Below are positions 19,736 to 61,600 of a stretch of DNA of 64,000 bases, piece after piece. Every line of letters starts with the position of its first letter. Position 1 is the stretch's first letter. The position numbers and the translations under genes are program-made. The stretch is taken from positions 7,853,001-7,917,000 of the forward strand of contig NC_092562.1 of NCBI RefSeq assembly GCF_037975245.1, in the 5' to 3' direction. The DNA is from Apostichopus japonicus. Taxonomy: Eukaryota; Echinodermata; Holothuroidea; Aspidochirotida; Stichopodidae. The notes beneath the pieces are model-generated. The model made no database searches, was not told where the DNA came from, and worked only from the letters and a program-made list of their open reading frames with translations.

Positions 19736-19849
19736 TTCACGGAACGTGTTCTATTTCTGTGGTAATTGTATTTCATTTGATTTCACCGATGCAGTTAGGG
19801 CATGTGCGCTCTATGTTCACACATTTTTCATTTCGGAATAGCGCCCCAA

Positions 19850-33724: not shown

Positions 33725-34539
33725 GCATCCTGTCAGCTGCAGATATGCAGATACTCAGGTATTGCAGGTATTTGTCACCCGCAAAGTATACGTTTCTGCT
33801 ATTTTGTATTCGGGAATTTAGCAGAACAAACGTGTAATCATCCACGAGGTCTGCTATAGATTATATACTACAAACAAGACAGAGATCTGATAGTTTGATT
33901 GCACTTTATTACAGATTTAGATGACTATTTCAGTACTTTACAATCTTAGAAGAAAGACAGTATAGAATACCTGTGCAAGGATCACACAGATAGGTTAAAC
34001 AATTATAGTTTGGAATACAGTTGAATGAATACAGCACTTTAATGCAAGTTCCCTGTCGTAATCTATATAGTTTGCTAAATAATGTAAAGAATACCACAAT
34101 CTAAGTACAACCTCTTCACAATGCTCTGAATGTAGATTGGTAACAGACGATGTTTTGACAATGTAAGCAAATGTGAAATTAAATGGAAAATAAATCCCAG
34201 TTTGGCAGAGAACAAAAGGCTGAAACAGTCTTCAAATACTACAGGAAGACAATTGTCTTTAACATTCAACACCGCCCACCATTCTTCTGCCTTTGCCCAT
34301 ATTTCTTGGAATTTGTGAAATTCTGGGTTTTCTTGTAAGATAGCAGAATATGTTATACAATTTGCAAAATTAGAAATGTTAGAAAAAGAAATGTTATAAT
34401 TCAATGAAATATCTGTTGTGCTACAAGGCATCTCATCTTTCACAAGTTTGACTCAATTCAAAAAGGTCATCTGCCATTTGAACCTGCCTCCTGAGTGTGA
34501 TTTAACTACAATTAACATCCTGTAGCTGCCAATGTGAAC
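33725..34539. other. Convergent 3' region between the two genes
   Basis: 815 bp between the two stop codons. A plus-strand AATAAA at 34189-34194 and a minus-strand AATAAA (plus TTTATT, 33905-33910) are candidate poly(A) signals. If both are used, the 3' untranslated regions overlap by roughly 280 bp. The 122-codon minus frame at 34443-34075 is probably a chance frame in this 3' UTR. Confidence 0.5.
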
Positions 34540-34689
34540 CTATTTAATGGTCGCCACCATATCCTCCACTGCATTCCAATCAATGCTCAAGCTGCTACCA
34601 CTCCCAATTGAAGCCATGTTCTCCAATTCTTTAACATCAACAGATGACAGGTAGCTGTCTTGCTCAGACATCTCAGAGGCTAAAGAAAC
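34540..34689 (-). CDS. CPLANE1: CPLANE1-like last coding exon
   Basis: 49 codons plus TAG. Ser-rich stretch followed by SIDWNAVEDMVATIK, an amphipathic helix that resembles the vertebrate C-terminus. Acceptor TTTGAAACAG. Phase 0. Confidence 0.85.
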   Translation of the reverse strand, partial: VSLASEMSEQDSYLSSVDVKELENMASIGSGSSLSIDWNAVEDMVATIK

Positions 34690-37600
34690 CTGTTTCAAAT
34701 ACAAAAAGGGATAAAATGTTGCTCAATTTCCTTTTAATATTGTTGCTATCATTCCATGCTTTTCTCATACTCCTGTGGTTTGTTGTATCTAATAGCTATT
34801 GAATAAGTTGTGTAATTTTATTGTACAGTTAATGTGATAAGACAATGATGAACAGAAACTTTCCTTGTGTGTTTGGTCTTTTCCTTTTGTGTCCTTAATT
34901 AAGTAAATGCATTTCACAGGTCACACCTGTAATATAATGACATGTTTGACACTGACCTGACTTTCATCATATAATATCTGTTTCACATCATCTGAAATAC
35001 TCCATGAGCTGATGTCACTGATGTTCTCCTCCCCTGTTGTCACCCTTGGGGTAAGGTATGGTTGGTGTCTTGAAGGCACAGAGTGTAGAACAGGAGACTT
35101 AAAGGTATAGGTACTTGAAGGAAAGACTGGAGGATGAGAAATTGGTTTATAAACATAGTTTAATGTTGTAAAACTAGTGAATCTATGAAAGATGTTGCAA
35201 TGAATACCCTTGACACAACATGAAGTTGATCATCTATAGGAAAATTTGATGGACCTGCTGAACTAGGGAAACCATATTTGCAGTCCTTCCAAAACAATCC
35301 CCCCTACTCCCTGACAGGACAGCACTAAGCAATGAATAAAAAGTGCAACGATTTGGTTAATTTTGACCTCTATCATATTCTTTCACATCTCTGATAAACA
35401 AAGAAATTGCTGTCTCACCATATACGTCCTTGTGACTTGGTAGTGGGGCTTGGGCTGTTGCTTGCTGGAGTCTATGTACATAAGGCACTGGCTGATGACT
35501 CAAACCTCGGCTTCTCATCACAGAAACAGGTCTTGGGCTGACTGGTGATCCTGAGGAGATGAGCAATTAAAATATGCTTGGACAACTTCATGGTAAAGAT
35601 ATGATGTAGAATCCTTATCTTGTACACAAAGTGCAGGGTTCATTCAGAATAACTCTTTGTCTTTTATACTTGAGGGTTTTCTTCTTTGTTGTGATTAATA
35701 TCCTTAGCAATTTAATAAAGGCAAATGCTAGATAAAACCACTATAATTCCTTGCCAGCTTTTACAGTTTATGAGATGTTAGGTAAACTGCACAAACAGTG
35801 CTTAATGAGGTTGATCCATACACCAAGCTTTACTCTTGGCACTATAACGTGCTTACAAAGTTTTCATACATTGACCTCTGCAGAAAACATTAGGATCTGG
35901 TTCTCAATAAGTTAGATCAGCTAATATGAAGTAAACCCAAGCTTTACATTTAGAGTTATGTTGTCCTAAAATCAAGTACCACAACAATATGCTAGTTGGC
36001 CATATAGTTTGCTCAAAATTGCACATATCTGATTTAAAGCAGGCAAATCAGCACTGTCACCAACCCCCAAGCAAAAGTCATGTAGTATAAATCATAGAGA
36101 AATAAGGCCAATTTTGAGACCACTTGAGTCTGTTTAAAACTTCCAACACAACAGAACTATTTGAAGCAGATTTCATTTCCTGGATATTTATGTACAGTTG
36201 AAGATCATTATATTTTGGGCCCATTCACTACACTGATCTGAAATTGACCAAACTATGTTCACCAAAAGAAAATCATAGTATGGTAGAGCTCACAGATTAA
36301 TTGTAGCTTTAATTTTGTAATTAACATGTTTACAAAAGGTTACATACTTTGGAACATGTTGGCCTCATGTTACCTTTGACGTCTACCAATTTCAAAGGGT
36401 TCCTGCACTCACTAAGCTGGTTCTACATACTAAGTATGGAGTTCCACAAATATGCACTTTTTATGTCTTGTTTACAAGGTTATACAGCCTTTGAATTATT
36501 TGACCGCATATGACCTTTGACCTCAGCCAGTTTCGCAAGGGTTCTTCTACTCACCAAGCTGGATCTATATACTAAGTATGAAGTTCAGCAAGATGCACTA
36601 TTTGAGTTATCATAATTAACAAAGTTTTCAGACTTTGACCTCTGTCTACCCCAAATGACCATTGAACTTCACAGAAAAGAATAGTGTTCTTGTACTCAAT
36701 TCAAATACACTCATGCCATCACCATGATCGCATAGATTTTTTCCACCTCTGGCAAGGAATAATAAAAGGTTCCAGATAACTTGACCATTGCAAAGGTACT
36801 ACCCTTCTGAAAGTAGTTGACAGATAACAGTCATTAGTGGGAAAGAAAAGTACTTTCAACCACTTAAAGGAGCTAAGGTGACAGTGATATAGAAAAGCCA
36901 TTCATCAAAGAAATGGTTAGAGAGTTTACAAGTTTTCAGACTTTGACATCTGTTGAACTCAAATGACGTTCCAACTCCACAGAAAGTGCTCACAATGGTG
37001 CATCCACATACCAAATACCATACCACTTTAAAGTGTTTAAGTTATCGTTTACAAGCAAAGGCGTTACAGACATGCACACACCGCATCACCATCGCATACA
37101 TTCCTTTTGCCTCTAAATAAAAAACAACAAGTTTTACAAGTATAGAGCAATATATAAGACATTTGTCCTCAAAAAACAGTATGGATGGTCCATTGGATGC
37201 TATACAACAGGTCAACATACCAAAGTGAATCAATATACCACATACAAAGTTCACCCAGCTTTGAAGTTTCTGGTTTCGATGATAATCATAAACTTTGCAT
37301 TCATGTGGCGTGTATGTGTGTGAGTGCATTTGTGACACCCAGCTTGTTAATATGATATCGCAAGCAGGGTAGGTCAGACAAAGTTCATAGTTAGTGTGTA
37401 GAGGTACCACATTTAGTATAAGCCTATTGTTTTTGGTGGAGGTCAAAGGTCATTTAGGGTCACCAGGGGTAAAATTGTGAAAAACTTGTAAACACAATAT
37501 CTCAAGAAGGGAAGCATGGGCTGACTTTATATTTAGTGTGCAGAAGTACCACATTGAGCAAAAAAAGACTTGTTTTTTTGTTGTTAAAGGTCATTTGGGG

Positions 37601-40600
37601 TTACCAGGGGTCAAAGTGTGAAAACCTTGTAAACACAATATCTCAAGATGGGAAGCATGGGCAGACTTTATATTTAGTGTGTAGAAGTACCACATTAAGC
37701 AAAAAAAGACTTTTGTATTTTTGTTAAAGGCCATTTGGGGTCACCAGGGGTCAAAGTGTGAAAACCTTGTTAACACAATATCTCAAGATGGGAAGCATGG
37801 GCAGACTTTATTTTTAGTGTGTAGAAGTACCACTTTGAGCAAAAAAAGTCTGTAGTTTTTGGAAGAGGTCAAAGGTCATTTGGGATAACCAGGGGTCAAA
37901 TTGTGAAAACCTAATAAACACGGTATCTCAAGAAGGGAATCATAGGCAGACCTCATATTTGGTGTGTAGGAGTACCACATTTATGTAAATGAAGCCTTTT
38001 GTTTTTGTGGAGGGTTAAGGTCATTTGGGGTCACCAGGGGTCAAACTGTGAAAACCTTGTAATCACGATATCTCAATACTGCAAGCTTGGTCGACCTCTA
38101 ATTTCTTACAGAAAACTGAATGGAAAATTTAGACTATGAAAAAGAGTAAACAAAAAATATGACTAGAAAAGAATTTGAAAGAGTGACCTCTGTACTACAA
38201 GCCCAGCACTCTATCAACTGAGCTATCCAGGAGTTAGTGGAAAACCCTAAATAGCCAAACTTAGTTCTGTGATAGTTGCAAAGGTAAGTGCACATTTCCA
38301 GTTGCTTTAATTACGTACCACAGACAGTACATGAATGACGGGATCCTAATATTGGGATTTCTGATTCACTTTGATACACTTAAGATAAAAGAAAACCTCA
38401 TATGTCAGTAGCAGTCATGAAGACTTAGAAAACAAGTATGTTAATAAAACCTGGTATAACATGAACTTCATTGCTCAACTACAAACAACATGCTGTAGCC
38501 AAATAGCATTAGCAGATGCAATTGGTAATCTTAGAACCCTGTCAAATTAAAGTGGGACCCAAACATCTAAGTTAAATAGCCATTTCTTTGCCCAATAGCT
38601 CATTCCTTTCTTCCCAGTTGTTCTATATAGAACATGTTATGCTTCTTCTCCCTGAGTCACTGCCAAGCATCATGCTACTGACAGATTTCTTTCTTACTGC
38701 AACATGATGTAGACACATGTATACAAACTTTACATCATGAAAAGTAGTTACAATAAAATATGATACCCTAAAATAATTGAATTCTTAATCTAAGGTATTT
38801 GCAAGTTTTGAATAAAGGAACAATTTGTGATTAAGAGATCGGCCAGAATGCAATCAACATAATAACCTCATATGTCAGTGCCAGACATGAAGGTTTTGGA
38901 GGATCTTGTAACTAAATAAAACCTGATATAGCATGCAAGGAATGTCAATGATCAGCTATATGATTGAAAACCTAGTTCAATATAATATACACTCATCTAA
39001 TCAATAATAGACATTAGCAGTATTCTCATCACTCCGGATGGAGAAGCACAATGTTTGCAAAAACACAGTAGAAGTCTATCAGCAATTTAAGTCACTGGGA
39101 ATGTCAATAGCCTATTAAGGAAGAAATCTCTGTAACGAACTGTCATTAGTCTATACAGCAAAACAGGAAAACATGAAAAAATAAAGGAGGGTCTTTGTTT
39201 GCAGACAACATTTTGCTCTATTAAACAATTACAAACCTGTCAAATATGAAAGCTGTTATTTGACATTTTTTTAATGTGGTTTCCAAAAATATTGAATTTG
39301 TAAACAAAGCATTAACTTTCAATGCCTATTATTGTACAGCCTTCGAGGGCCTTTACTTGTTAGAAGCTTTCACTATCACTGCAACTGGCCTCATTCCAAG
39401 TAATCTTGATGTCAGCATTTAATTTGCTTTTAGGAGACCTTTGAACCTCCGATTCATGAACCTTCAAAATCAAAACACTTGTGACCATGGTGAGTAGCCT
39501 TCCTGAATATAATAATCCAGAGATGAAGTAATTGGCAAACAATGATCCCAATTCATCTGAAGATGGATTTTGGCTACAAATCCTTGCACAACCAAAGGCA
39601 ATTACTAGCCAACAGTTGTGGCCTAAAGAATTCCTGTCTAAGTAGATTCATCTTGTCTAGTTTTAAAACATTACTGTCTCATGAACTTTGAATTTCTGGG
39701 GGGGGGGGGGTAGGGGGAGGGTTGAGACTTGTTTATACTTTACCTTTCATTTCTTGTCTCTGTTCTTTACTGCTACTTTCAAAGCTCTCTCTCAGAGCTC
39801 TCACACTCCTCCTTCCTGTTCCTGCTGCTTTGTCAGGTTTCTTGGATGGAACTGGTGGATCTCTTCTTCTAGTTTCTAATCCTCTCTTATCATCTTTAAT
39901 CAAGTCTTGACTGCTCTGTGTCTGTGATGCTGTGGAATAACCAAAAAGTGACTATATTATGAAATTATTGCTTTATTCATTGTCAAAGCTGTTCTGTCCA
40001 ATATGAGTTTCAAGGAATCTACATATAAATCAACTCTGTGTCTGTAAGGTTACCTGGTACTCTTTCTGTGACCTTTGTTTGTCTAAATCCTGCTACATTT
40101 CTCAGATTCTCTCTCCTTGCATTCTTATTTCTGGATTGCATCAATTTGCTCTTCCCTGAAATGAAACATAAATGAGAAGTTGTATTGTTAAACCATGCAG
40201 CCTGATAGTTCTCACATGCAACTCTCTCTTGAATTCTCTGTTATGTGAGGACTTAAAACATCCACTCTACTAACCAAACCTACCACAGCATTATCTCCAG
40301 TAATCTGATTTAAAGTAAGGCAATTGAAGCCAATAGGGATCAAAATCAATACTTAACCACCTATCCATCAATAGTCAATTAATAGTCCATTAACTATCTA
40401 TCCATCAATAGTAACATGTAGCCATGTACCTCAGGCCTTAACTTTTGAGGTTACTTTCATTGTCTTAGCAGCTGAACCATAAGTTTCATCAATAGTAACA
40501 TATAGCCATTTACCTCAGACCTTACCTTTAAAGGGTACTTTCATTGTCTTAGCAGCTGAACCATAAGTTTCATCAATAGTAACATGTAGCCATTTACCTC

Positions 40601-43600
40601 AGACCTTACCTTTAAAGGGTACTTTCATTGTCTTAGCAGCCGAACCATAAGTTTCATCAATAGTAACATGTAGCCACGTACCTCAGGCCTTAACTTTTGA
40701 GGTTACTTTCATTGTCTTAGCAGCTGAACCATAAGTTTCATCAATAGTAACATGTAGCCATTTACCTCAGACCTTACTTTTAAAGGGTACTTTCATTGTC
40801 TTAGCAGCTGAACCATAAGTTTCATCAATAGTAACATGTAGCCATTTACCTCAGACCTTACCTTTAAAGGGTACTTTCATTGTCTTAGCAGCCGAACCAT
40901 AAGTTTCATCAATACTAACATGTAGCCACGCACTTCAGGCCTTACCTTTAAAGGGTACTTTCATTGTCTTAGCAGCATAACCATAAGTTTCATCAATACT
41001 AACATGTAGCCATGCACTTCAGGCTTTACCTTTTAAAGGTACTTTTATTGTCTTAGCAGCTGAACCATAAGTTTCATCAATAGTAACATGTAGCCATGTA
41101 CTTCAGGCCTTACCTTTTAAGGGTACTTTCATTGTCTTTGCAGCTGAACCATAAGTTTCCTCTTTGAGCTCCATCAGCATTTCTGCATATGTTTTTGATT
41201 TCGTTGTCATAACTGACCCCCTGGAACCTCTTGGATTTTGTAATCTTACAATATCAGTGAAAGGTCTATGTTTATTATCAGTTAAAGATGGTTTCTGCTT
41301 CCCTTGTTTCTTGAAACCTGCTGGTTTTGCGATTGGTTTGGACTTGGTTACAGTAGATGTGGGAGGTTTGGCATCTGCAAGTAACTCTGACATCATATCT
41401 CTGGCCTCATTCACCCGGTCCTGATAATCATCTCTTTTCCTCAATCTGAAAGTTAATCAGGTCAAAAATATCCAGTATTGAAATAATTTCATGCATAAAG
41501 GTAAATTAAATACCATAATTCAAGAAAGCAAGCATTTGAAGAATCAATAGAATGTTATAGTTTCTACAAAAAAAATGGTCTTTCTGAGAACTTCCCATTT
41601 GACCAGTGCTGACCTTATATGACCTTTAAACAATAAAAACCATGAGGATTGCAGTAATCAGCATAGGGAACTCTCAAAATCAAGTATTCAACACTTCCCT
41701 TCTTGAAATATGTATACAAGGCTTCCAGGCTTTCAGTTTATCTATAAGCCATAGTTGACTGCTCCCCTAAAGATGGTGCACTTCGCAGGCATTCAAAAAG
41801 GAAACATACAAACTTTTATGCATCACTTCTGCAGTACAGAATTTCATAAATTTTAAATTTTGACCTCTGCTTATATAAAAGAGATTTTAATCCACACAAA
41901 AAAAATCAGCACAGTACTTGTTCATTAACATGGATGCCATTCTTGAGGTATTGTGCTTACAAATTAGACTTCATACATACATTTGACTGCATTGCATGCA
42001 AAAAGCAAGTAACCTATGCAGTAACACCTCTCAAATGAAATATAATCAGGTGAAGTTGCATGCTATTGGAACACTGAAAGGTTAACTGAGACTACATCTG
42101 ATATGAGGAAGACACTACCTGTACCTTCTGTCTTGGTTACTGGTATTATCACTTTGTCTTGGTGTGTGCTTCTACAAAGGTAAGAAGAAATACAAAGTTC
42201 TAGAGGAATGCTAACAGGAACTTGATATTTTATCAAATTGGCAAAACAAATCCACAATAAGAGTCCGAGAATCTACAATATAAATGTGAATGCATCATAA
42301 AAGATAACTTGTTATAGAGTAAATGTATTAAAATATTTCAAAATTATCTGCTACTAATTAATTTAATTTATGGAGGCAACGATTACCAAACAGCTGCTGC
42401 CCACTCTCTGTCACAAAAGATAGCTGCAACCTGTCAATATTATTGCCATCAAGTGATGCTGCTAATGAACTGTGGATTTCAACAATTTGTTTGAAAGCAA
42501 ATACCTTGCAATGAATGTTCAGATCAATGCAGAGTAGTGAGTCAAACTACTAGAGTATGCTGGATCTAATCGATGCCAGTAAAGCTGCCAGCACCTACAG
42601 ATGGATCATGTTGAATCTATATTAAAAGGCAGACTCTCCCCCTTTAAAATTAATAACTAGTGGACAGACTTGCTGCCAATGATGACTGATGAGATACATC
42701 TGGGTCTTGTGCACTTTGAATAGTTAGGAGAAGTCAAGGGCACAGTACAAACTACTGCCTATACTATGAGATAGTCACAGTGCAAACTACTGCCTATACT
42801 CTGAGATAGGCACAGTACAAACTACTGCCTATACTCTGAGTTAGGCACAGTACAAACTACTGCCTATACTCTGAGATAGGCACAGTACAAACTACTGCCT
42901 ATACTCTGAGATAGGCACAGTACAAACTACTGCCTATACTCTGAGATAGGCACAGTACAAACTACTGCCTATACTCTGAGATAGGCACAGTACAAACTAC
43001 TGAATATACTCTGAGATAGGCACAGTACAAACTACTGCCTATACTCTGAGATAGTCACAGTACAAACTACTGCCTATACTCTGAGATAGGCACAGTACAA
43101 ACTACTGCCTATACTCTGAGATAGGCACAGTACAAACTACTGCCTATACTCTGAGATAGGCACAGTGCATACTACTGCCTATACTCTGAGATAGGCACAG
43201 TACAAACTACTGAATATACTCTGAGATAGGCACAGTACAAACTACTGCCTATACTCTGAGATAGTCCAAGTAGACTCAAATCATGACCATCCTTTCATTG
43301 TAAATCTTCAAATGTACTTCACTTACAGCTAAGAGAGTAGTGATTTGAAGAAAATCAAAACAGGCTGCAATGATGGATGTAAGTAACTGATTACATCAGA
43401 CGTGACAGCATATCATATGGTTATCATAACAACATGCTTTCTTGCAGTTATTCTATTTACCATAAGTTACATACAGTACCTTTTCTTCATGTGATGTCCC
43501 TTCCAATATTTCCTGAACTGGTGTAGGTATCTTGTCCACATGAGGTAGACCTGCCAAACTGATGTCACCATGGCTGAAATAAGACATAAACAGTTGTTTT

Positions 43601-46600
43601 GATCAACAGTTCTCACTGATCACAACAATTAGCATTAATGTACTCTGCTAAACAATTCACTCTTTCAGGAATGAGTCAATAATCATTTGTATTCAGTAAC
43701 TTGATTTAGCAATACTAAAAGGCACTTACCTGCTTCTATCTGCTGAGACATCTACCTCTTCCTGTTGACCTCTCACATTTTCATTGACGGCATCAATAGT
43801 TTGCAGCAACTGTTAAAGCACAAAATGTCCATGAATGAAATAACAGGTTCTTATACTAATATATCAAGTTTCAAAATTTACGGTAGAAGTCATGTCTCAG
43901 CCAGAGTCGACTTGACTTGAGCCAAGGGTATGTAACAAAACTGCTGCATCTTATTTTAAAAGTTTCGTTTTTAGTTTCATTAATGAGGAAATGCATTAGC
44001 TGACATGGCATAAATGCATATATGAAAGCTCTTCTAGAAATCATAGTTATAGCAATATTGATTAATATTCCACTATAAGGATTAACATTAAAGGAATGAA
44101 AACCCATAAGCTTACAAAGGGGAGCATCAGAAACTTCTCACATGAAAGTATGGATATCTGAAAATGTGTAAATGGTGGAATTTGTGTTTGGAAGATGAGG
44201 TTGCATTGTTTAGGTACTTATATGGTAGGTTTATGTGCAATGGTGTATTACAATAATTATATTATTATTATAATTATATAATTAGATAATTGACCAATAT
44301 CATGAGAAGGCCATAAACATGTTTTGCATCTACCGATCCATTACAATTCTGGATGTTACATTTTGTGTATAATTTACCCCAACTTAAATAAACAGAGAGA
44401 ATCTATTGCATCATTTATGACCTTTCACCTCTTGTAATAGTTTACCTCATATTAAGACTAGATGATTTCTCTTCTAACAAAACCATTTCATACTTACATC
44501 TTTGGTGTTTTCAAGATCTTTCCTTAAATCTTCCGACTTGTCCGTTAAGAGTTTCATCTTTTCATCTAAGACTGCTAGTGGAGTTTCTTTAGGGATTCCA
44601 TCTGGAGAAGTGTCTTGTTTCCTTCTGGAACATATTGTAATGTAGTAAGCAGTTATATCCCTGTTGTATCACTTCAAACATGTGCTTTCATGCCTCTTTG
44701 TCTTAAGAGTAACTACTCACTTCCTGTTCCCAAGTTCATTCACCCCTCACACACATCATAGTCGTACAGTACAAGCGCCCTTTGTCTTAAGTCCATGAAA
44801 TCCTCACGCTTGACCACAGATGACAACCTGTTACATCTCATGTGTACAAAAATGTGGTCAGTCATAGCCCTGTTCTATGTGCCTTAGCAATTATAAGAGA
44901 ATTTACCATACAAAGAGTCTATGTCACAGAGAGGCTGTTGCCCCTTAACAGGAAGTTGTAATGACTTAAATACTGTAGTTTTTTAGTATGAGAAGAACTA
45001 GCATTCAAGACTTTAGATAGTGCAGTTTAGATATACTATTCAGAATCTGCACTCCAGCAACAATATTATCATTTCAGAATAAATAAAGTTTATATTCTAC
45101 AATTATATCTGTCTGGAGTTTCTCTTTATCTGCTGTTCTACCTATTTTATAATTGAGCCCTGAACTAATTGAGCTGGGGCACCCCAACGTAACAATATGC
45201 ACAATAACCATTGGTCATAATTCTTCAAAAAACTCATTATGGAAAAAAAAATCATTCCCTTCTGAGAGAGCACTCTAAAATGGCAGATTACAATGAAGTA
45301 AATGACAAAATATGCATTCCTCTTTCAAAACTATTCGTAGCTGGAAATTTTGTAAGTTACAAACTATAACACACAGGCAAGAATTTACAACAAAATGACT
45401 TTCTTATTTTGTGCATAACTACCCATTTTACAGGCCAAAGACAAAAAGAATGTCATCAAATACAAAACACTATTTTCTACAAATAGAAAATATATGTGTA
45501 TGTGGAGGGGGTGGAACAGAATGGGGAGGGGGGGTGTGGCACCATGTAAAGTTGGAAGTATCTAAAGTATCAAACCTTGATGGCAGTGAAGGTTTTAATC
45601 ACACCAGGTAGGATTACCCCCAAGCACATTTAAGAACCTAGTGACATTAAGGATAGTGAGTCAGATTAACAAATATTCTTGGGTATAATAGAACTTATTT
45701 GTAACCTACATGTATCCTACATTCCTATGCCTGAACAATTGATGTAAGATGAAGTGAAAAATCTGCGTTTACCTCTCGGTAGCTGTTTCTGCTGCCTTCT
45801 CCAAAGGTCCAATTCCATCTGCATCCCTCAAGAAGAGAGATTTGTAATGAAGCTCTGCGTTGCTGACATCTTCTTTAGTTTGAGAGGATAATTCTGGCTC
45901 CTTTGGCTGATTTAGCAAATTCCTCAAAATACCAGCACCCACATCAACTACACTCAGGAATGATTTACCAACTGATGAACTCTGGTGATAGGTAGACATT
46001 AGGTTAAACGGACACTAATTATGTGATTAACAAGTATCTTTACAAACTGTATACACAGTTATTAACTGGAGCCATGTAGTGAACACATATCTGCATATTG
46101 ACTAATGCAACTCTTAAACATAAAAATAAAACAAACACTATGAATTGTTTGCACCTTCATGCATTATTGTTGCAGCATTTTCTGTTATACAAAGCCTTTA
46201 AGATGACAAGAAGATAATGTTACTGACGTTAGATATATAGGTATCGGGAAAATGAGCTCATTACTGAAATATTTTGACATAAAGGAATTGGACAGTCACA
46301 CTAACAGACTCAAAGAGTAATTGTGACTGTCTGACCAAAGATTATCACTTACAATAATCAGATAGGCCATTACTAGTTAGTTTTCTAAAGGTAATTAAAT
46401 TCCAATCAGCTGTACCTTCTCTTTTGAAGTTGTCTGCTTGACCTCGTCCATACTAGATATCTCCTTTTCATATCCCATGAATATCTTTGGTGCCACCACT
46501 CTATTGACTGCACGAAGACCACTAATCAGGAAGCTTGGTTCACTCTCCTCAGTCGATTCTGGTTGATAATCAAAATATGAAAACTATGTGAAAGAGAAGG

Positions 46601-49600
46601 GGTGAACATTGGGGTATGAAATTTCAGAACTGTAAGCAAACCAGTTTTAAGAAACTTCAGAGCATATTAATTATAAATTATAAATGTTTTGCTCTTTTGC
46701 CAAACATTTCCCTTTTCCAGACCACATAGGAACCATGATTATTGATAAATAGTTTGCTAGTTATGGGTTGGTTTCTCTTTTCTCTGAATACATCCACATT
46801 GTCACTGTCTATCTTTGAACTTATTCCTAAACCCTTACCTGATCAGCAATTCACTCAGATGGCGTCATTGCAAAAGACTACACCATGAAATGTAGCACAA
46901 CAATTTCTTAAAAAATGCATGCGTTGATGAACTAATGATGTCTTATAATATATATTTTTTTGCCACTAATGTCTTTATGATGACTAGTGTCTGAAATCTA
47001 GCAGATCACTTAGATTTAATATTTATGTAATGCATATATAAGATCTTGTTAGAAACTTTCTTTATTAAATGTATAATTCATATCCTGTATTCACAATGAC
47101 AACTAGGTGACATTTTTCCAGGACATGCTTCCAAACACTAGTGAGGTTTCATTTTACCTATGGGTGGTGTATCTTCCTCACCAAGAGGAGTGGGAGGCAC
47201 TTGAGCAGTCTCTGTTGAAGCAAGCTGTTTGACAATACTTAGATGTGTAGCAGCTGAAGTAGTCCATGGCATAGGTTCCTGCTCCTTCAAATTGTCTGCT
47301 GATCAAAAATATGAAACAGTTTAATGTTTAAATACTTGGTAGTGTTTCACTCCATTTACCAGTGTTCTGTTCCTTATATTTTCTCTAGTTTCTCTTCTCA
47401 TGCTCAATGATGCAACCAGCTGGTAATTAGCTTCAATGGACACACAGCTTCAGTCCAAATTATAACATCCAAGGTAGCCTAGGTTTACTAGGAATATGTG
47501 GTATCATCTATTATTATAATCTTCTATCTTTTCTGTTGTGACATAATCAGTCTACTAACATTAAGGTGTCTGTCCAAGTGTACTTGAAGATGTGACAATA
47601 TAGAAACACAACCAGCTGCTTAACATGCTATACCATATGTAGTAATGATTTGAATACTCTGTAAGTTTGTACTGCTCAGACTCAGCTCTTAACATGCTAT
47701 ACCATATGTAGTAATGATTTGAATACTCTGTAAGTTTGTACTGCTCAGACTCAGCTCTTAACATGCTATACCATATGTAGTAATGATTTGAATACGCTGT
47801 AAGTTTGTACTGCTCAGACTCAGCTCTTAACATGCTATACCATATGTAGTAATGATTTGAATACGCTGTAAGTTTGTACTGCTCAGACTCAGCTCTTAAC
47901 ATGCTATACCATATGTAGTAATGATTTGAATACGCTGTAAGTTTGTACTGCTCAGACTCAGCTCTTAACATGCTATACCATATGTAGTAATGATTTGAAT
48001 GTACTCTGTTTGTAAGTTTGTACTGCTCAGACTCAGCTCTTAACATGCTATACCATATGTAGTAATGATTTGAATACTCTGTTTGGAAGTTTGTACTGCT
48101 CAGACTCAGCTCTTAACATGCTATACCATATGTAGTAATGATTTGAATACGCTGTAAGTTTGTACTGCTCAGACTCAGCTCTTAACATGCTATACCATAT
48201 GTAGTAATGATTTGAATGTACTCTGTTTGGAAGTTTGTACTGCTCAGACTCAGCTCTTAACATGCTATACCATATGTAGTAATGATTTGAATACTCTGTT
48301 TGTAAGTTTGTACTGCTCAGACTCAGCTCTTAACATGCTATACCATATGTAGTAATGATTTGAATACTCTGTTTGGAAGTTTGTACTGCTCAGACTCAGC
48401 TCTTAACATGCTATTCCATATGTAGTAATGATTTGAATACTCTGTTTGTAAGTTTGTACTGCTCAGACTCAGCTCTTAACATTCTATACCATATGTAGTA
48501 ATGATTTGAATACTCTGTAAGTTTGTACTGCTCAGACTCAGCTCTTAACATGCTATACCATATGTAGTAATGATTTGAATACTCTGTAAGTTTGTACTGC
48601 TCAGACTCAGCTCTTAACATGCTATACCATATGTAGTAATGATTTGAATACTCTGTAAGTTTGTACTGCTCAGACTCAGCTCTTAACATGCTAAACCATA
48701 TGTAGTAATGATTTGAATACTCTGTAAGTTTGTACTGCTCAGACTCAGCTCTTAACATGCTAAACCATATGTAGTAATGATTTGAATACTCTGTTTGGAA
48801 GTTTGAACTGCTCAGACTCAGCTCTTAACATGCTATACCATATGTAGTAATGATTTGAATACTCTGTTTGGAAGTTTGAACTGCTCAGACTCACCTGTCA
48901 GTGGGTTCACCTCTGGAGTCAGATCTGCAGGTTGGTCCTTCTCTGATGCTGAGCTTTCTTCAAACTAATGAAAATAGTGGTAAAATGTGCTTACAGTCCA
49001 GCAAATTGAGAATTCCTTTGCTCCAAATATATTATCTATGATATCCAACTTGAACCATTACAACAGGTTATTAGACATGGAAAATTAATTTAAGCCTAAA
49101 CAAGAACTATCAATGAAGTCTTTTAAATTCATATGAGAATATGATGAAATCAAAACAATGATGGAATTTAAACATATTAGTTCATAGGTGAAAATATGTG
49201 CATAGTTTTTTTGCAGGCAGCTTTAAAAACAGACTGCTAGATAAGTGATTCCATCCCTGCACCCCAAATAATAGATTACTACAAGGTAACCAAATGAAGA
49301 AGTATTTTGGTTTACTCCTATTAAGTTTCCTTCACTGTACACTATCATGGGGTGAATATTACAGGAAGGTTCATGGTTAGCCATACTAACTCTTCACCAA
49401 GACCTTCTGAAAATACATAATGGAATGCTGCAAACTCAAACAATGAAGCCATATTGAACATTACATAAGACATTGCCAAGACTCTCAAAACACACCTGGG
49501 CATTCCTCACTCTTCATCAACATCTTTGACAATAGAGAATAGAGATTAACCTGAGAATTATGGACTGTAACTTAGAGTTCAGCTGATGTAGACTGTCTCC

Positions 49601-52600
49601 AACAGTAGTAGTACACGACTAAGGCAGACTTGTTTCCAACATTACTATTAAAGAGGCATACTATAACTTAGAATTCAGCAGCCTGTAACTTAGAATCCAG
49701 CAGACTGTCACTTAGAATCCAGCAGACTGTCACTTAGAATTCAGCAGCCTGTTACTTAGAATTCAGCAGACTATAACTTAGAATTCAGAAGACTGTAGCT
49801 TAGAATTCAGGAGCCTAAGGTTGGTACATACTTCTCAACCAGTCTCCACCATCAATATCAGACATGTAAAGGAAACTTTTATGCTAGCAATATACCTCAT
49901 TTGCTGTCGAGTCAAGGGTCTGTGGATCCATCTGCCGTTGCGAGGCCTGATTTGTCTGTTCTGGTTCTCCGGTGGCTCTCCGAGACTGATGGAGGCTGTG
50001 AATAGACGGACAAGACAAAAAAGGGAAAATATAATTCAAAAGAACCAAGAGTCAAATTTCCTTGCTTAGTTGAATATTAAAGTGTTGTATGTCATCATCT
50101 CATATCATAATATATATACCAGCTATTATAAACCAACAACTGTATTCAAGTTTGGATATAATCTGATTTCAGGTTGTGGAGTTAATTGCAATTTTAAAAT
50201 TTTGGTCCCTCTCAAAGAAATTGGGACCAATAAAATTGTACATGTTAATGGTCCCAAAAATATGTGGCCCAGACAAAGCGGCTCAAAAAATATAAATTGG
50301 GTGGGGAATTATTTTGGGGCACAGATGGCTTTCAACCAAAAATGCACAGAGATTTAGATGACATAATTAGTTGTATATTTTAGGAATCTAAAATCTGAAG
50401 ATTCTCTTCTGGATTCCCACTCTTCTCTGTTTATATGACATGAAATGAGTACTGAACTCCACTATAAACAATGCTACTTGGGTACTCAGTTTGCAGGATT
50501 TGACCTCTGCTGACCTGATAATGGGTTCATCTACTCATCATAGAGCATCCATATACAGCATGAGATACATCCAAGATACCCTTCTTTTGATATTACATTT
50601 GAAAGGTTCCAGACTTTGACCACTAATAAAAACAAGGATTCATCCACTCAATATGGAGTAATCCACACACTTAATATGCTCATTCAAGTTTCTGTTCTTG
50701 AGATATCCACCTCCATCAAAAACAATATGCTTCATTAGCTCACTGTGGTACTTCTACACACTAAATGTGAGGTCTGCCCAAGCTTTCCTTCTTGAGATAT
50801 CATGTTTACAAGGTTTTTACAATTTGACCACTGGTGACGACAAACAACCTTACCCCTCCCACCAAAAACAATAGAATTCTTGTACTTAATGTGATACTTC
50901 TACACACTAACTATGAAGTTGGTCTGACCTTCCCTTCTTGATATATCGTGTTAACAAGCTGGGCGTCACAAATGCTCTCACACACACTCACACACGCATC
51001 ACGAATGCAAAGGTTACAATTATCATCAAAACCAAAAACTACCCAGAAATTGATGCATTCCTTTTTTTAATTTTTTCAATGTCATACAGCTATGAGTATA
51101 ACTGTCCATCATCATCATCATTACCATCACCATCACCATCAGCACCACCACCACCATCATCATCACCCATCATCATCACCACCACTATCATCAGCACCAC
51201 CATCACCCATCACCACTACCATCATTATCATCATCACCAATCACCATCATTAACTACCATCAACACTAGCACCATCACACCACCATCATCATTACCATCA
51301 CCACCATCATCAACCATCACATCATCAACCATCATTATCACCACTATCACACCACCACCACAATGATTATTGTAAGGACAGCAGTATTGGCCTTACAGTA
51401 GATGTAACACAGCAGAAAGACACTTACGGCGCACAGTTGAGTGACAGATCTGATGTCTCCTTTTCAGGTCTACAAAGATAAAGGATATAATGTATGCTCA
51501 TTGTGCACTGAAGAAACACTTTAGTTTTAGCTTTAACTACTGACTGAGTAACTGGGCAAGCTCAAAGAAAGACTTGCACATTTTAAAAGGGATTTCAAAA
51601 GGAATGAAAGATGCATTTATCCCAAGTTTATGCCAGTTATATACATTTACATTTGGCAAGAAAATTTTATAAAAGTATGAATAAGAAAGGGAAAACAAAC
51701 TTTAGACTTAAATAATCAAATGTCAGTGGAATTCACTAAATTACAGCATATTATTTAAAATTGATTATTTAAGTCAATCAGTCTATTTCAAGCAGTTACA
51801 AAACAAAATACCATTGCCATGCCAGATGTGTTCAATATTAAACTTTTCATCAATAGAACATGTGTTAGTGTGTAGTTGAATAATCTGATATGTTCCTTCT
51901 CTGTTCTAGCCAGTGTGTAAATTACATGTGTATATAGTTCTATCCAGAAAAGTCTGGAAAAAAATTTGAGAAAAGCAGTTAATGAGTTGCACTTTTGTAT
52001 CCTCCCTGTCCATGCAACAAATGAGAGTTAAGCTAAAGATAAACAAGGCATGAAATGTTTGTACATTCCTCACTTAGTCTATGAGAACATAGTTATGTAG
52101 ACATTTGCTAGCAGCTGAAAATAAATTAATGAATGCAACTGAAGTTCAAAAATGCGTTGTATGTAAACAATACATCTTCACAGAAGTTATGTATATTAGA
52201 ATGTGTGTATGAGTTTGTTTTCATTCTCTATTTGCAGTTGTCAATATCATTGATCATATTGTATGAGATCACTAACCTCTAAGGTAGAATGTAGCTTAGT
52301 ACATGTGTGTGACAAACATCAGCGACTTACCCACTAAGTTCCTCTTCATCCTCCAGCATCTCTCTGTTAGGACCAGCCTGCTCCTGCTGCCAGCCTCTTA
52401 CACCTTCATGTGGAATCTTCTGTCCCTGCAAACTATTTCTCTTTGGGAAAGCTACAAGCTGGGGTGGTTCCTGTCTTTCCAATTTGAGTAAGGGCATATC
52501 ATATGGTATAGCTCTTCCTCTTAGTGACAGAGGTTGATGGACCTCTGTAGTATGTATCTTTGCCTGTTTGACCTCATCCACTGATGTTTGTTGAACTAAT

Positions 52601-55600
52601 GGAAGACAAACTCTTTGGGTTTTGTTTCTCTTTGCTTGGATGACTGGAGACACATCTCTATCAAGAGTTAATAAAGGAAATGTCCCAATGGGCTTAAACC
52701 TAGATTCCTGCATTGGTAGCTCCCTATATTGTTTGTCAATCAAATGAACTTCTTCTTCTTTGGGCAACGTAAGGATTGGGAATGGAAGACCAAGTGCATC
52801 AACTGATAATGACTGCTTACCCTCCACATACTTATTTAGGAAGCCCTTAGATCTTGAGTAGTCTTTCTGACCTGCAATCATGTTTGGTGTCACTTGTGTT
52901 TCTTCTGTCACAGCTGATTGAATACCATCTGTGTGTTCCCCTGTTCTCTTATCTGCTCTATTCAACTCTGTCGTTCCTTCATGTCTCTTGTCTAGGCCTG
53001 AGTATGATTCCTGATGATGGGCATCAAGTGTCTTAATCCCTATAGGACTTGTCTGGGACTCTTGGTGAGTTTTAACTACTGTGTCTTGTCTCTCCACTAA
53101 AGTCCTGATCCCGATAGGGACTGTCTGGGACTCTTGATGACTCAGGAATGCAACTTGCTTTGTCTCCTCGGTTGGTCTCAGTCCTGGTTGAGTGATCTGG
53201 AAGATCTCTGACTGTTCATTCTGCTGTTGGATAGAACTGTTTCTCAAGAAGGTTGGCTCTTTTTCTGTGATATCATCGGTGTTGGAGTCTCCCTAAATAA
53301 AAAAAAGAATAAATTAGTTGCACAATGTAACCAAAATGTACAACTTGCATTATGGTTCTAATAGTGTCAATATTAACATCTTTTACATATCCCAGTTTAA
53401 TTGAATTTTGCAAAAGTGACTTGTACCATATATCATGTTTCATCCACAATGAATGAAAACAATTCTGTTGTCTGTGTTGGTAACATAACCCAATTGTCTT
53501 CTTGCAAACTGTGGAAGCTTGTCAGTATATGGAAGCTTGTCATAATATGCCTTTGCAAGAAGAAAATATAAAAGATTGGTGCTTAGCTCTGCTAATTCAC
53601 CGACTTCGATCTAATTTCCAACTTTCTAATTACGTAAGCGTTTTGTCATATCTGGATAGGATATAAAAAAAACCTTTTGTGATTTGCATACTACATTACT
53701 CAATAAATTAAATTTCAATTCAAGTTTATAAAAATGAAGTCCATTCAAGATTTCAGTCCTGAAATATTTTGTATGGTTTTCAGATTTGACCAACAATGAC
53801 CCTTTACTTCTAATAACCAAAGAGCTAACAGGCTCCTTGCTACATGTTACAGTATATCAAAATTTAATGTAATTTGTGGTTTAGACAGGTCTCAGTCTTG
53901 AACCACCTGGTTTCGATGCTGGACTGATAGTTCTACAGAGCAATACATTTATTAAACAGATATATACAATCCCATCAATCTGACTTACGTGTAAGAGCCC
54001 AGCAGAGAAACTGGAGCTGCTAGTATGGATGCCCATAATGTCCTCTGCCACAGAAGGGATTCTGGTTTTGTCATATCTCCCAAAGCTGCTCTTTCTGTGA
54101 ATACAAAGGTTGAAGTATAAATAACAGTTTAACACATCAGATAGCTATCATAAATTATCAAATAAGATTGTACCAGACAAAGAGCAGTTTTTTACCCTGT
54201 CATCTCATTAGTGTGAAAGATATACCTAGATTTCTTTGTCTAATTACTGAATTTATTAATTACTTCCAACAAATGTCAGAAACCTCATTGCTTTTAATCA
54301 CTCTGCAACAATGTTTCAGATGCAAACACAATACCATCAAATACATGACTATGTACATTAGTAGCTCCAATTCATTTGTTTCCTATGGTGGATAACAATG
54401 TTTTGAAAAGAACTACGAACATGTGTTGAATGCCAGAGGAGACTTGAAGTTCAATCAAGTGATGAGCTCAGTGAAGCTCAATAATTGTCCTGAATTGATG
54501 AAGTAAAGTATGTGAAGTACCTTACAAGGTGAGATGACAATTCAGGAAGAGCCAATGAAACATCTTCATCTTGTTCAAACATCTCTTCTTCACTGACATC
54601 TGTATCGCTACTGGAGTCATCCATATAAACATGAACATCAGCCCTCATGATACCTCCAAGCTTAGTCTTAGGAACAGGCTCAGAATTCACTCCTTTTCCT
54701 TCAACTGTGGCAGGGGTCTTGAGTCTATTCTTCCTAGTATCTCTGTCATCATTGTCATCCTCCACCAGCTCTACAGGATGCTTTGGATGCTCTCTCAATA
54801 TTACACTGCTGCCTTTGTCTGGCTCAGATGGCAAGACTCTCCGCCCTGACTTACTCGTGGCTGTTTTAACATCTCTCTTCATTTGTGGCTTCTTTCCTCC
54901 AGGAAAACTCTCATTTTCAACAGGAGACACAGACAAAAGGTTCTCTCTTATTTGTTGCTTGCGAGTAAGGTCGTGTGTTTCTTTTGATTTCTTGAGGTCA
55001 TCACTGGAAACTGCTACTTGTGATTTTACTTCTGGAAGAATTCTTCTTGATATTTCATGAGTTGGTACTTGACCTACATCTTTCCACACTCTTCCTTTAT
55101 AAGTCTCCTGTAAGTGGTGACGAAGTAACCATAATCCCAGGACAACCAGCAAACTGGGAGGATGAAGTTTAAGGGTAATTCCTGATAATTCCTCAGCTTC
55201 GTCAATAAGTAGACTATTATGTTCTTGTTCTGGCCACACTTTAAGCCAGTTAAGGAGTTTCTGAAGCCTTGTATACACAGAGCCCCACAAAATGTTACTT
55301 TTAGAAAAGCCCTTGTTAACAGCAAGATCAAGGAATGTTCCATCCATGACTTCTACTTCTTCTTTACTATAGACTATAACATCATCCTCTTTCTGCCATT
55401 TGTACATCTCAATCACGTCATCACTTGAAAACGTTTCAAAGTTTTTCTGAAACAAACCCTCATCCACTTGAGTATCATGAGACTGTGTCCCTGATGACTG
55501 AGGGACAGACTGAGCATTCTGCAGCCACTTTAACAGGTCCTCTGTGCTGATTTCAACATCACACTCATTTCTCTTTGGCACTTTGCGCAACTTCAAACCA

Positions 55601-58600
55601 AGTTCTTTATTACAAATATCATGATAGAATTCATTGATAAGAGGTAAAGGAATGCTGAAATTTTGTTGTTTTTCATTCGGAAGACTACCAAAAGTGACCA
55701 AGAAAAATGTTTCTAGAAAGTTTAAAAACTGAGGTGAATATTCTAATTCTCTGCTGCCTACAATTGGAGTCTCAGTATTGCCTGGATCATATGAATATTG
55801 CACAGATAATCCCTGAGTAGAAGCAAAGATGGTTTCTTCTACATGTCCGAATGCTTTGGAAATGCTTCTTAAGGCAAGTCTACGCATCTTGCACTGTAGT
55901 TTGAAGTACACCAAGAGAGAAATACTCTTCATTGATTCATCTGTCTGCTTCTTGGGCTTTCTCTCCTGATACACTTTCTTCTGACTTAGTCTCTTTTTGA
56001 GTCTCTGAAACTTTTCTGTTAATCCTGGTGGAAATGCTTCCTCATCGTAGAAAGAATAAGCCAAATTAGCTACATGCTCTTTGCAAAGGTCAAGTTCCAA
56101 AACAGTTGTTAATATGATGTCTTTGATGTCTTCTGACTGACCAAAGACATTGGCAAATGGAAGAAACAACTTGGCCCATAGTAAAATGTCTTCCTGCTTA
56201 CTCTTCAACTGTTCCTTCACCCTTCTCATGTCCTCAGTCTGCAAAGCAACAAAACAAGGCAATTCATAGATTTGCAGATCTCATCCAACACTTTGGTTGT
56301 ATGATGGCATCACATTTACATTAACTAATACACTCTAAACATTGACAGTCATTACTTCCTACATGGATATGACACTTTTCTCTGATCTCTATTGACCACC
56401 TACGTGCCGTGCCTAACATAGCATTTATAGTAATTCATGCACTGTTGACTTTCCACATATGATATCCTATGTACACAGTTTTGAGGGTGTGAACCATTTT
56501 GTGATTTGGTATGTGCAAAATGACCGAAACACTGTTTTTCCCCCGTAAATTTGACCTTAATTCAGTGATGTGCAGTCATTTATGTCCCCCTCCTACTTTT
56601 CAATTGGGATTGACCTTATTGGCTAAATTTGAATGAATAACAGATTCCGCTGTACCTCACCAATAAAATGGCAGCCATAATACAACTGAAAAGTTTCAGT
56701 GTTAAAACCTTTAGACCTACCCTAGACCTAAATTGTCTCAAATTAAATACAATTTCAAAGCATGGATACCCATTGTAATATTTTGTCAATAGAAGATCAT
56801 TGGAACAGTACAGTATGTGATGGGCTTGTCAGTGTCCATAAAAGTGACACTTACACCTGCTAGTAAGTAATAACAGACCATCTAGATACCCTCTGTGCAT
56901 GCTAATGAAGTCTAAGGTTGTCACATGATGCCATATCAGCCAATTTGAGCCAGGAATGAATATAACAAATAGGAGAGGTTTGTAGAATAATAGTTAGAGC
57001 GCTGCAAACTTTCGCTCTAATCTCCAACATGGTTTTGAGAATTTTGACCAGTTTGGTATGTGCATAATGTTCAATATGCTGTGTTTTGATCATCCTATGA
57101 TGTCATAGGTCTCAGAGGCATTATATTCCATGTCAGGCAGATGCCCACCTAGTCTAAAGTCTATCTGCTTAATGGTTTAAAAGTTAACACAAATTTCACC
57201 TTTGTCTTCCTGTTATCACATGACTTTTGGCATTTAACTTAGTTAATGCACTTTTAACTTTGAATCTGTTATCCCACATAACTTTTGAGGCTTTTGGCCA
57301 TTTTGTATGCACATTATTGACAACAATGTTCGTTTTGGTCAATTCACCTTTGAACTCTAATATATGACCATATGATGTCATAAGTCACATTTCATGGCCA
57401 TGCATATACCCACCAAGTGTGAAGTCCATTGGCTTTTGGTGTAGGAGTTCATGCAACACTTGTTTTTTTTTTTACCATTGACTTCTTTTGATCATATGAC
57501 TTTTCGCATTTTACATTAACTTGTAGAGTCTGATATCCCACATAAGTTTGAGGGCTTCGTCCATTTTGTCATGCATGTCGTGGACAAAATGCTGTTTTTG
57601 GTTATTTAACCTATAACCTCTGACCCATGACATCCTAAGTCAGGGTGGAACTACTACACGGTGCACATGCCTAGGCATAAACCCACCAAGATTGAAGTCC
57701 ATCCTCATTAGGGTTTAGGTTTAGGACGAGTTTAAGACACCCTTTTCTAAGCAATCACGCACACACTAAGACACACAAACACAAATACACACGCAGGCCA
57801 ACTTGATGCTTGCCTACCAAAAAGTTCACAACATTAAGAACAATACATGATCATCAACTTGGCTCACTCACCTTGCAGATCTGCAACATATATCTGGCAA
57901 TTTTTCCTCTCCTCAAAGCTTCAGAGAGTTTGTCTCTAAGGTGCAGCATCCAAAGCAAAGAGCAAAGGTCACGAAAACACTTGAGAATGAACTTTGTTCC
58001 TGGTTGAATGTCGTCAGGAGCTTCGGTACCATCCATTATATCAAGAACAAAATTCACATGCTGATGTAGGGCACTGGGTAAATCTTGACTCTCTGATCTC
58101 TGTGGGATCAAGCAAATCAATCACGACTTTAGACATATCAGTCCAGCATTGACACATCAAAGATACCTTGCAATGTGTGTTTCAGTCTTTTAGTAACAGG
58201 ACTTGTTCAATTTGGATTGGGTTCCAAACTTTAGTCAAACTTTTCGATTTTTAATTTGAGGATAAAAATTGATGGTGTCACACCATATTGAATAAATTCT
58301 GTCTGATTGATAGTGTTCTGTTAAGTGTTACATGCATCATCATGGCCTTTTCATACCTTCTTGGCGTATGCCCATGTCTGAACATTGTCCAGCTGTTCCA
58401 CATACCAGCGGGCACTGACTCTGCTACAATTGGAAGCTTCTAAGACTATCAAAAACTGCTTCACCAACAGAGTTATCTTTCTGCGAGAAGTAGTCTCTTG
58501 GATGACTTCAACTGGATCTTCCTCCTAAAGTAAGAGAGACAGGACATGTTTGCCTCTTCTAGAAGTCATGAATATCTTAAAGATAAAGACAAGTCCTACA

Positions 58601-61600
58601 AGGAAATTGGCTTCAAGATTTCTAATCAACCTTTCATTTTTGCTACCATATCAACAGAAAACATACGTCTCAAGTTATCAACATCAACACCATCCTCATA
58701 AGCTAAATTCAAATCAGCCTGCTGTTTTCAGTTTTTAGGCCAGTTGCAACCACTGTTCCTCACTAGCAATACTTGTTCCTATTGTACCACATCTTTGTCT
58801 AAGATGTCAATTCCAGCTTTATAACTCCCGGACCATCATAATTTTGAGACTTTCCTTTATTTTTGTTTTATTACTCTTATTTTCACAGCAGTAAGGGCAC
58901 AATAAATTACGATCCAACTTTGAGACCGACTTGGTATCGATTTGAGACCAACTTTTGATTGCACTTTAGTGTGGAGGGGGGGGGGGACTGTGGCATGTTG
59001 TTTGAAGGTCTGAGTATGTAATAGTCACATGTTTGTAGACAGTTTCATTCTTATGGATGAAGATAACTGGAATTGCCACAGATAATGATAGAACATATGG
59101 TGTATGTATGCCTGATTGTGTAAAATTAATCTCGGACCCTTGCCTAGTTTTTTGCAAGAAACATATGTCTGTGGGCCAAGGTGATTGTCACAGCTCTGTA
59201 GCAAAAGTTAGACTTATTGTTTTATTACTCCTGGCATTAAGTTGGTTGCACAAATTATTTTACAAAGAAAGAGAATTGGGGAACAAGGATGTTGTTCCTA
59301 TGTTTAGTAAATTATCATTTGATTGAGAGACTTAAGACTGTGTGTATAGGCCTGGGCTTCTTACACAAGTGGAGCAAGACAAGGCTTGTCAACTTAGTGT
59401 GACAAACAAAACAAACACTATCCCTGACCATGTCAAGTTAACTTAAAGTGAGATCAATCTTTATGTCCGTTCAGATGCATACATTTATGTCAACAATCAA
59501 ATGCAATGTCATGCTGGACATGTCCTAGTTTACACATTTGTGTAATGTATATATAGGGATTAATATACTCTAATGCACTTTTATAATTACCACTGGTATG
59601 TAGTAAACTTCTTATACTTACAGTAAAGTGCATTCTTCTACTTACAACTGGTGTGTAGTCAGGGGCATTCTTATATGTACATCTGGTGTGTAGTCAGGTG
59701 CATTCTTATACTTACAACTGGTGTGTAGTCAGGTGTATTCTTCACTAACAACTGGTGTGTAGTCAGGGGCATTCTTATACTTTCAACTGGTGTGTAGTCA
59801 GGGGCATTCTTATACTTACAACTGGTGTGTAGTCAGGGGCATTCTTATACTTACAACTGGTGTGTAGTCAGGGACATTCTTATACTTTCAACTGGTGTGT
59901 AGTCAAGGGCATTCTTATACTTACAACTGGTGTGTAGTCAGGGGCATTCTTATACTTACAACTGGTGTGCAGTCAAGGGCATTCTTATACTTACAACTGG
60001 TGTGCAGTCAAGGGCATTCTTATACTTACAACTGATGTGCAGTCAAGGGCATTCTTATACTTTCAACTGGTGTGTAGTCAGGTGTATTCTTATACTTACA
60101 ACTGGTGTGTAGTCAGGGGCATTCTTATACTTTCAACTGGTGTGTAGTCAGGGGCATTCTTATACTTTCAACTGGTGTGTAGTCAGGGCATTCTTATACT
60201 TTCAACTGATGTGCAGTCAAGGGCATTCTTATACTTACAACTGGTGTGCAGTCAAGGGCATTCTTATACTTACAACTGGTGTGTAGTCAGGGGCATTCCT
60301 ATACTTACAACTGGTGTGTAGTCAGGGGCATTCTTATACTTACAACTGGTGTGTAGTCAAGGGCATTCCTATACTTTCAACTGGTGTGTAGTCAGGGGCT
60401 TTCTGATCCTTACAACTGGTGTGTAGTCAGGGGCATTCTTATACTTACAACTGGTGTGTAGTCAGGGGCATTCCTATACTTACAACTGGTGTGTAGTCAG
60501 GGGCATTCTTATACTTACAACTGGTGTGTAGTCAGGGGCATTCTTATACTTACAACTGGTGTGTAGTCAGGGGCATTCTTATACTTACAACTGGTGTGTA
60601 GTCAGGGGCATTCTTATACTTACAACTGGTGTGTAGTCAGGGACATTCTTATACTTTCAACTGGTGTGTAGTCAAGGGCATTCTTATACTTACAACTGGT
60701 GTGTAGTCAGGGGCATTCTTATACTTACAACTGGTGTGCAGTCAAGGGCATTCTTATACTTACAACTGGTGTGCAGTCAAGGGCATTCTTATACTTACAA
60801 CTGATGTGCAGTCAAGGGCATTCTTATACTTTCAACTGGTGTGTAGTCAGGTGTATTCTTATACTTACAACTGGTGTGTAGTCAGGGGCATTCTTATACT
60901 TTCAACTGGTGTGTAGTCAGGGGCATTCTTATACTTTCAACTGGTGTGCAGTCAGGGCATTCTTATACTTTCAACTGATGTGCAGTCAAGGGCATTCTTA
61001 TACTTACAACTGGTGTGTAGTCAGGGGCATTCTTATACTTACAACTGGTGTGTAGTCAGGGGCATTCCTATACTTACAACTGGTGTGTAGTCAGGGGCAT
61101 TCTTATACTTACAACTGGTGTGTAGTCAGGGGCATTCTTATACTTACAACTGGTGTGTAGTCAGGGGCATTCTTATACTTACAACTGGTGTGTAGTCAGG
61201 GGCATTCTTATACTTACAACTGGTGTGTAGTCAGGGGCATTCTTATACTTACAACTGGTGTGTAGTCAGGGGCATTCTTATACTTACAACTGGTGTGTAG
61301 TCAAGGGCATTCCTATACTTACAACTGGTGTGTAGTCAGGCTGTGGACAATAATAGGGAGGAGCTGGCAAGTAGTACTTCTCATGAACCACAGAACTCAG
61401 CCTGTAAGCAGTTAACAAACACTGCTGTAATATACTCCCTAGCAACCAGGGCACCAGCTCTATTCCTGACAGGGTACCAGCAAGGAATATGGACAACAAT
61501 GCTTTCCTAAGCTTATCTTCTGCTTCATCTGATATTTCCACAAAACCTTTGGAGAAAGAGAAACCCCATCAGTATTCTGCATCAACAATGTTTTATTAAG

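Follow-up and report, generated by a model that had tools for sequence, protein, structure and literature searches.

Mirage-like minisatellites at predicted donor splice sites of a CPLANE1-like gene in the sea cucumber Apostichopus japonicus

In a 64,000-bp stretch of the genome of the sea cucumber Apostichopus japonicus, hereafter the window (C2:7853001-7917000 of a 671.6-Mb, 35-contig genome), three minisatellites with units of 84, 69 and 35 bp lie at the predicted 5' splice sites, or donors, of a single minus-strand gene that is a putative homologue of CPLANE1/JBTS17. We consider it likely that they are mirage-type minisatellites, which would have originated by chance tandem duplication across an exon-intron junction, would have been harmless to the host gene and would then have grown. 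They are apparently of the same kind as the repeats termed 'mirages' in amphioxus, now in a new phylum, the Echinodermata. In the accessible portions of two papers (PMC3087553, PMC3902484) this name is given to tandem repeats spanning exon-intron boundaries in the amphioxus Adh3, troponin C and PGBD5 genes and in the globin genes BflGb6 and BflGb9; both types of boundary are involved, many copies keep their splice signals, regular splicing is reported to be undisturbed, length instability is reported, and in PGBD5 the repeats abut the 5' splice site. The original prediction, which had picked out the three arrays from the DNA, knew of no named class for them; to the extent that these portions describe them, the mirages provide one.

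Tandem arrays were called with Tandem Repeats Finder (TRF). The 84-bp minisatellite (40403..41159, minus strand, 9.0 copies) spans the donor at 41114; in its unit 46 bp come from the exon tail and 38 bp from the intron, the intron part starting with the donor GT. The 35-bp minisatellite (59630..61340, minus strand, 49.0 copies) similarly spans the donor at 61323; here the exon tail contributes 18 bp to the unit and the intron 17 bp, the intron part starting with GTAAGT. The 69-bp minisatellite (47613..48893, minus strand, 18.0 copies) abuts the donor at 48895: its first base is position +2 of the intron, it includes no exon tail, and one base separates the exon from the array. Exon-tail copies in the 84-bp and 35-bp arrays are nearly identical to the genuine exon, and among downstream copies the donor GT survives in 6 of 8 for the 84-bp unit, 36 of 48 for the 35-bp unit and 0 of 17 for the 69-bp unit. 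The prediction of three minisatellites at the donor side of one gene, abutting or including the exon-intron boundary and extending into the intron, is thus borne out by TRF and the predicted donors, two of the arrays spanning the junction and the 69-bp array abutting it. The unit sequences had also been described as unrelated, and in a whole-genome DNA search, with very common words skipped, each of them matched its own array alone. Introners and other intron-filling mobile elements are a further setting in which repeated sequence meets splice sites; unlike these, the window units had no dispersed related copies in that search. The 35-bp array includes a higher-order duplication, a pair of 431-bp blocks with 99.3% identity at a distance of 769 bp, and because of this identity part of the array appears to have grown by one large recent duplication.

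The exons between 38500 and 64000 were predicted with a small home-made splice-aware model, for which three long open frames served as training data, and edited manually at two points: donor 61323 was put in by hand, and one spurious exon within the 84-bp array was deleted. There remain 21 exons in the predicted minus-strand gene, several of the small ones being weak, and all three arrays fall within this one gene. The predicted exons in question (all minus strand) are 41114..41445, which ends in the 84-bp array, 48895..48957, which ends at the 69-bp array, and 61323..61546, which ends in the 35-bp array, their last bases being 41114 (AAG/GTAAGG), 48895 (CAG/GTGAGT) and 61323 (GTT/GTAAGT), respectively. 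The model's own upstream donor was exchanged for 61323, since no stop interrupts the frame before the donor in the array. Reading phases agree at this hand-set donor (0 to 0), and such agreement is informative at 61323 only, since the model forces it at 41114 and 48895. We place the gene as a putative CPLANE1/JBTS17 homologue because of a match to the Joubert profile (PF15392) at 34534..34704 on the minus strand, the sole one among the genome matches listed. Taken alone this stretch reaches 27.8 bits (cut-off 27), and a portion of the profile lying before it is weakly matched by the exon next to the 84-bp array (E=0.0015, below the cut-off). Joubert was not recovered when two joined-exon pieces were scanned against Pfam, NCBIfam and PDB searches returned no match, and there was no Rfam match within the window.

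As far as the accessible portions of the amphioxus papers allow the comparison, the likeness to mirages is threefold: the 84-bp and 35-bp units span a predicted exon-intron boundary, the 69-bp array just abutting it; the splice signal persists in many copies, though not in every one, as in the GT counts given above; and both donors and acceptors are affected, in 10 and 4 cases respectively among 248 sampled exons. The present arrays differ from those mirages, which are described gene by gene in cephalochordates, in coming from an echinoderm, in reaching up to 49 copies, in having a sampled rate and in clustering by gene. A partly accessible study (PMC4974935) describes intron gain by tandem duplication of a segment containing AGGT or a splice site; as there, the duplicated segment contains a splice site, whereas the host introns are here taken as pre-existing and the intron is new in that case.

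Unit anatomy was compared over 14 arrays, comprising the three of the window, the ten donor cases from the sampled exons and an array at a KRI1 exon (L171), with some tails read by eye. The exon tail spans 0-89 bp, and its fraction of the unit ranges from 0 to 0.92, with a Kolmogorov-Smirnov test against a uniform distribution giving p=0.44 (with unit lengths of 124 for L049 and 80 for L092). As the exon-side edges are not at one place, an edge anchored at the donor is disfavoured, and the suggestion that array edges are fixed at intron positions +1 to +6 is not supported; their variation, from 0 to 92% of the unit, instead favours random duplication across the junction. On the origin that we favour, a tandem duplication would happen by chance to span an exon-intron junction; the first, original donor would still be used and define the exon; the surplus copies of exon tail and donor would end up in the intron and, because they fall there, would be harmless; and the tract would then grow and homogenise as an ordinary minisatellite. 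With a duplicated acceptor, a usable AG would come to lie ahead of the exon and harm should be more frequent, so that selection could explain any surplus of donors over acceptors. The parts of this account that we infer are the use of the first donor, the succession of events, their neutrality and a role of selection in any donor surplus, and it is limited by splice boundaries and a donor choice that are predicted from DNA.

Unit anatomy, locus-specific units, near-identical exon-tail copies, a two-copy stage and the acceptor cases all support this origin. The two-copy stage is represented by L045, in a myosin gene, where two copies with a period of 220 show 91% identity over 206 bp across the junction, which looks like an early stage of such an array. 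In L112 the second copy has lost the donor. The KRI1 exon (Kri1_C, E=5.6e-28), which was found solely via repeated donors and not via the exon sample, extends as far as the first of the donors in its array. When the decay of downstream donors was compared across six arrays, GT ranked with the least conserved dinucleotides in two of them (4th of 34 and 3rd of 51) and did not do so in three, and L073 yielded no verdict. A whole-genome search for two CAGGTAAGT motifs spaced by 15-45 bases produced 87 matches, and its reversed control 63, these being rows and not independent arrays; 63 of the 87 come from three arrays (C2, C5, C9), and the others include at least two interspersed families, so that we draw no conclusion from the counts. 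Five arrays from this list (L171-L175) were inspected by eye, and a clear exon stands at the start of one, that of KRI1, and of none of the others. By eye, one of the interspersed families with paired CAGGTAAGT is found on C3, C8, C11, C15, C17, C18 and C20 and the other on C4, C16, C17 and C19.

Several features of the arrays themselves weigh against a junction-spanning duplication: the window 69-bp array and L011 begin at the donor and lack an exon tail, the tails of L024 and L073 are just about 4-13 bp long, and the donor of L092 is poor relative to the consensus (score -0.86).

The frequency of such repeats was estimated from 248 exons, picked by protein family and blind to repeats, that correspond to 83 genes after grouping by family, strand and distance. 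The first set of 148 exons (191,440 bp) comprises 85 of 85 DNAH (DHC_N2) and 63 of 70 myosin-head matches, with flanks of about 650-800 bp; the second set of 100 exons, with 250-bp flanks, comprises 50 of 126 kinesin and 50 of 52 ABC-membrane matches, namely the top 50 of each by E-value as fixed beforehand. An exon-copy test independent of TRF looked for a part of the exon recurring within the 250-bp flank with a score of at least 19, and the minus strand served as the control. It gave 13 plus-strand hits against 1 on the minus strand in downstream flanks and 5 against 0 in upstream flanks. The final count consists of the exon-copy hits after sequence inspection together with three additions from TRF and reading, L011 (abutting), L024 and L073. 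Among the downstream hits we dropped L016, a CAGA microsatellite, L097 and L098, in which the copied part stops short of the exon end, and L130, L017 and L103, which are single old copies of 75-79% identity; the upstream hit L051 was dropped as a copy of the exon end and not of its head. Arrays near an exon and not touching it (L010, L108, L091 and L020 7873-8823) were left uncounted. Random intron points, tried as a further control, gave 183 plus-strand copies (score of at least 19) at 1101 points and 29 on the minus strand, and were set aside as not comparable because points within array bodies score as hits.

Repeats were thereby found at 10 of the 248 donors (4%; 95% interval 2-7%), namely at L006, L011, L020 (twice), L024, L045, L049, L073, L092 and L112, and at four acceptors (1.6%; L029, L081, L148 and L164), which show the mirror-image repeat; L164 rests on the exon-copy test and not on the TRF criterion. 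These counts suggest that donor-touching repeats are not rare in the Apostichopus japonicus genome. Since acceptors carry them too, and the pooled difference of 10:4 is not significant (p=0.18; by gene 7 versus 4, bootstrap 0.11), the notion that such arrays occur on the donor side only is not sustained.

One might suppose that the genome is merely rich in intronic minisatellites, that some of these touch donors by chance placement and that the three in the window were picked out for doing so. The genome is indeed well supplied: in the first set TRF yields 39 merged arrays in 191 kb, of which 31 touch no exon, corresponding to about 0.19 per kb of intron, and in the second set it yields 7 merged arrays at the first 84 exons and none of score at least 100 at the last 16. 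The window gene also contains arrays away from its donors. From 34534 to the window end there are four TRF arrays of score at least 100 in addition to the three already named: a second 35-bp minisatellite (42739..43264, minus strand) 215 bp from the nearest donor; a 22-bp minisatellite (49656..49810, minus strand) 85 bp from a weakly predicted donor; a CAT-rich array (51106..51360) 67 bp from a predicted boundary; and a 145-bp repeat of 4.8 copies (37387..38076, strand not assigned) that lies in the gene span where no exons are predicted. Hence all three arrays first noted are at donors, as had been claimed, but they are three of seven in the gene; none is at a predicted acceptor. Nor does their number prove as hard to reconcile with chance as had been thought, as three of 21 donors at the sampled rate has P of about 0.05 in a gene that was picked for its arrays. 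What makes mere placement quite improbable in our estimation is the content of the units, because an array that simply lands beside an exon acquires no exon sequence: at least 15 bp of exon sequence is present in the units of 7 of the 10 sampled donors (all but L011, L024 and L073) and of two of the three window arrays, and the strand asymmetry of the exon copies, 13 to 1, tells in the same direction.

A different proposal is that a mechanism linked to transcription or splicing, such as an R-loop edge, a U1-bound pause or template switching, seeds arrays preferentially at donors. A uniform-seeding expectation, built from the summed unit length of the non-touching TRF arrays of the first set, amounts to 2.58 touching arrays per side for 248 exons. 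Measured against it, the pooled donors show about a fourfold excess (10; Poisson P=3.5e-4) and the acceptors are near uniform (4; P=0.26), the donor figure being slightly flattered because L045 is counted though it is not a TRF hit and the expectation is one of TRF arrays. Within the first set there are 8 donors to 1 acceptor (p=0.039), and TRF hits alone give 7 donors against 1.54 expected (P=0.001); under gene resampling the excess is weaker, with a one-sided value of 0.03 and a 95% interval of -0.1 to 13.6. In the second set, where about 1.04 are expected per side, donors number 2 (P=0.28) and acceptors 3 (P=0.09), or two of each under the TRF criterion set beforehand, and the donor excess is not replicated. 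The pooled excess therefore comes from the first set, and a donor bias is not established; the enrichment at donors that the original prediction had asked about is seen over uniform seeding in the pooled sample, with no clear excess in the second set. Retaining L130, L017 and L103 would change the tally to 13 donors versus 4 acceptors (p=0.049).

The events also cluster by gene: they fall in 7 genes, where 9.5 would be expected (P=0.009). Of the six exons sampled from a myosin gene at C4:23.97-24.00 Mb, three (L024, L049, L073) have donor-touching arrays, and this gene resembles the window gene in having multiple arrays of this kind. At L020 (C12:417000-426800), less than 10 kb of a DNAH gene contains eight merged minisatellites of score at least 100, two of them at donors and one, 7873-8823, ending about 21 bp before an acceptor. 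Together with the fourfold pooled excess, this clustering counts against chance duplication, because uniform neutral seeding does not predict it; gene-specific transcription could produce it, and two arrays do begin at the donor as seeding there would have it. On the other side stand the lack of a fixed offset in the exon-side edges, the second set and the non-significant overall ratio. We regard preferential seeding at donors as unlikely on this balance, and hold it similarly improbable that some process, such as germline transcription or splicing during transcription, actively promotes duplication at the donors of certain genes; if this were true, sea cucumbers and amphioxus would be copying very many of their donors into the introns that follow them. 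The pooled excess and the gene clustering nevertheless lend a transcription-linked cause some small probability.

The arrays might alternatively be coding repeats or alternative exons, with downstream donors being used and the repeats adding peptide units. The units are open in the exon frame in the 69-bp array, L006, L011 and L020, and the 36 intact downstream donors of the 35-bp array would be available for such use. Yet a stop codon lies in frame within the intron part of the 84-bp unit, the 35-bp unit is not divisible by 3, longer units in the 69-bp array break the frame, and the unit length is a multiple of 3 in just 6 of the 14 arrays, all of which makes a coding role highly implausible.

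A curiosity of a handful of amphioxus genes is now apparently met in another phylum, at about 1 in 25 donors of a repeat-blind sample, and becomes countable. Such loci provide a natural test of spliceosomal choice between dozens of nearly identical donors, are raw material from which introns may slide or be gained, and allow a link between tandem duplication and transcription or splicing to be asked about. We found no echinoderm report of repeats at exon-intron boundaries in the open-access literature, which is not proof of absence, and the term 'minisatellite' does not occur in the main text of a sea cucumber genome preprint (PMC13228809).

Elsewhere in the window, an HMG-box exon at 31374-31640 on the plus strand adjoins the CPLANE1-like gene, and a lysine-rich open frame of 415 codons with no Pfam match is situated at 27616-28863. 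On the minus strand, 1435-5399 contains what is left of a retroelement, including domains for integrase and RNase H (4395-5399 by domain search and the rest by reading), which we take to resemble Ty3/gypsy. Minisatellites of 18 bp at 9558-10668 and 19847-20027, two of three being rich in CTCGATCGAG, are probably related to each other and have long open frames in several reading frames. Outside the window, contig C35 is a mitochondrial genome of 16,099 bp. Its tRNA order (by ARAGORN), with the protein genes assigned from open frames, is that of sea urchins and sea cucumbers, and its cox1 carries AAA at positions where asparagine is conserved, in line with the echinoderm code. Searches for the GFP family, whose controls were likewise empty, and for mir-2, against a weak control, gave no match that would point to amphioxus, the source considered first on account of its mirages. 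Fragmented pieces of mitochondrial cox1 at C29:14745-31219 (minus strand) represent either a mitochondrial insertion or a misassembled contig.

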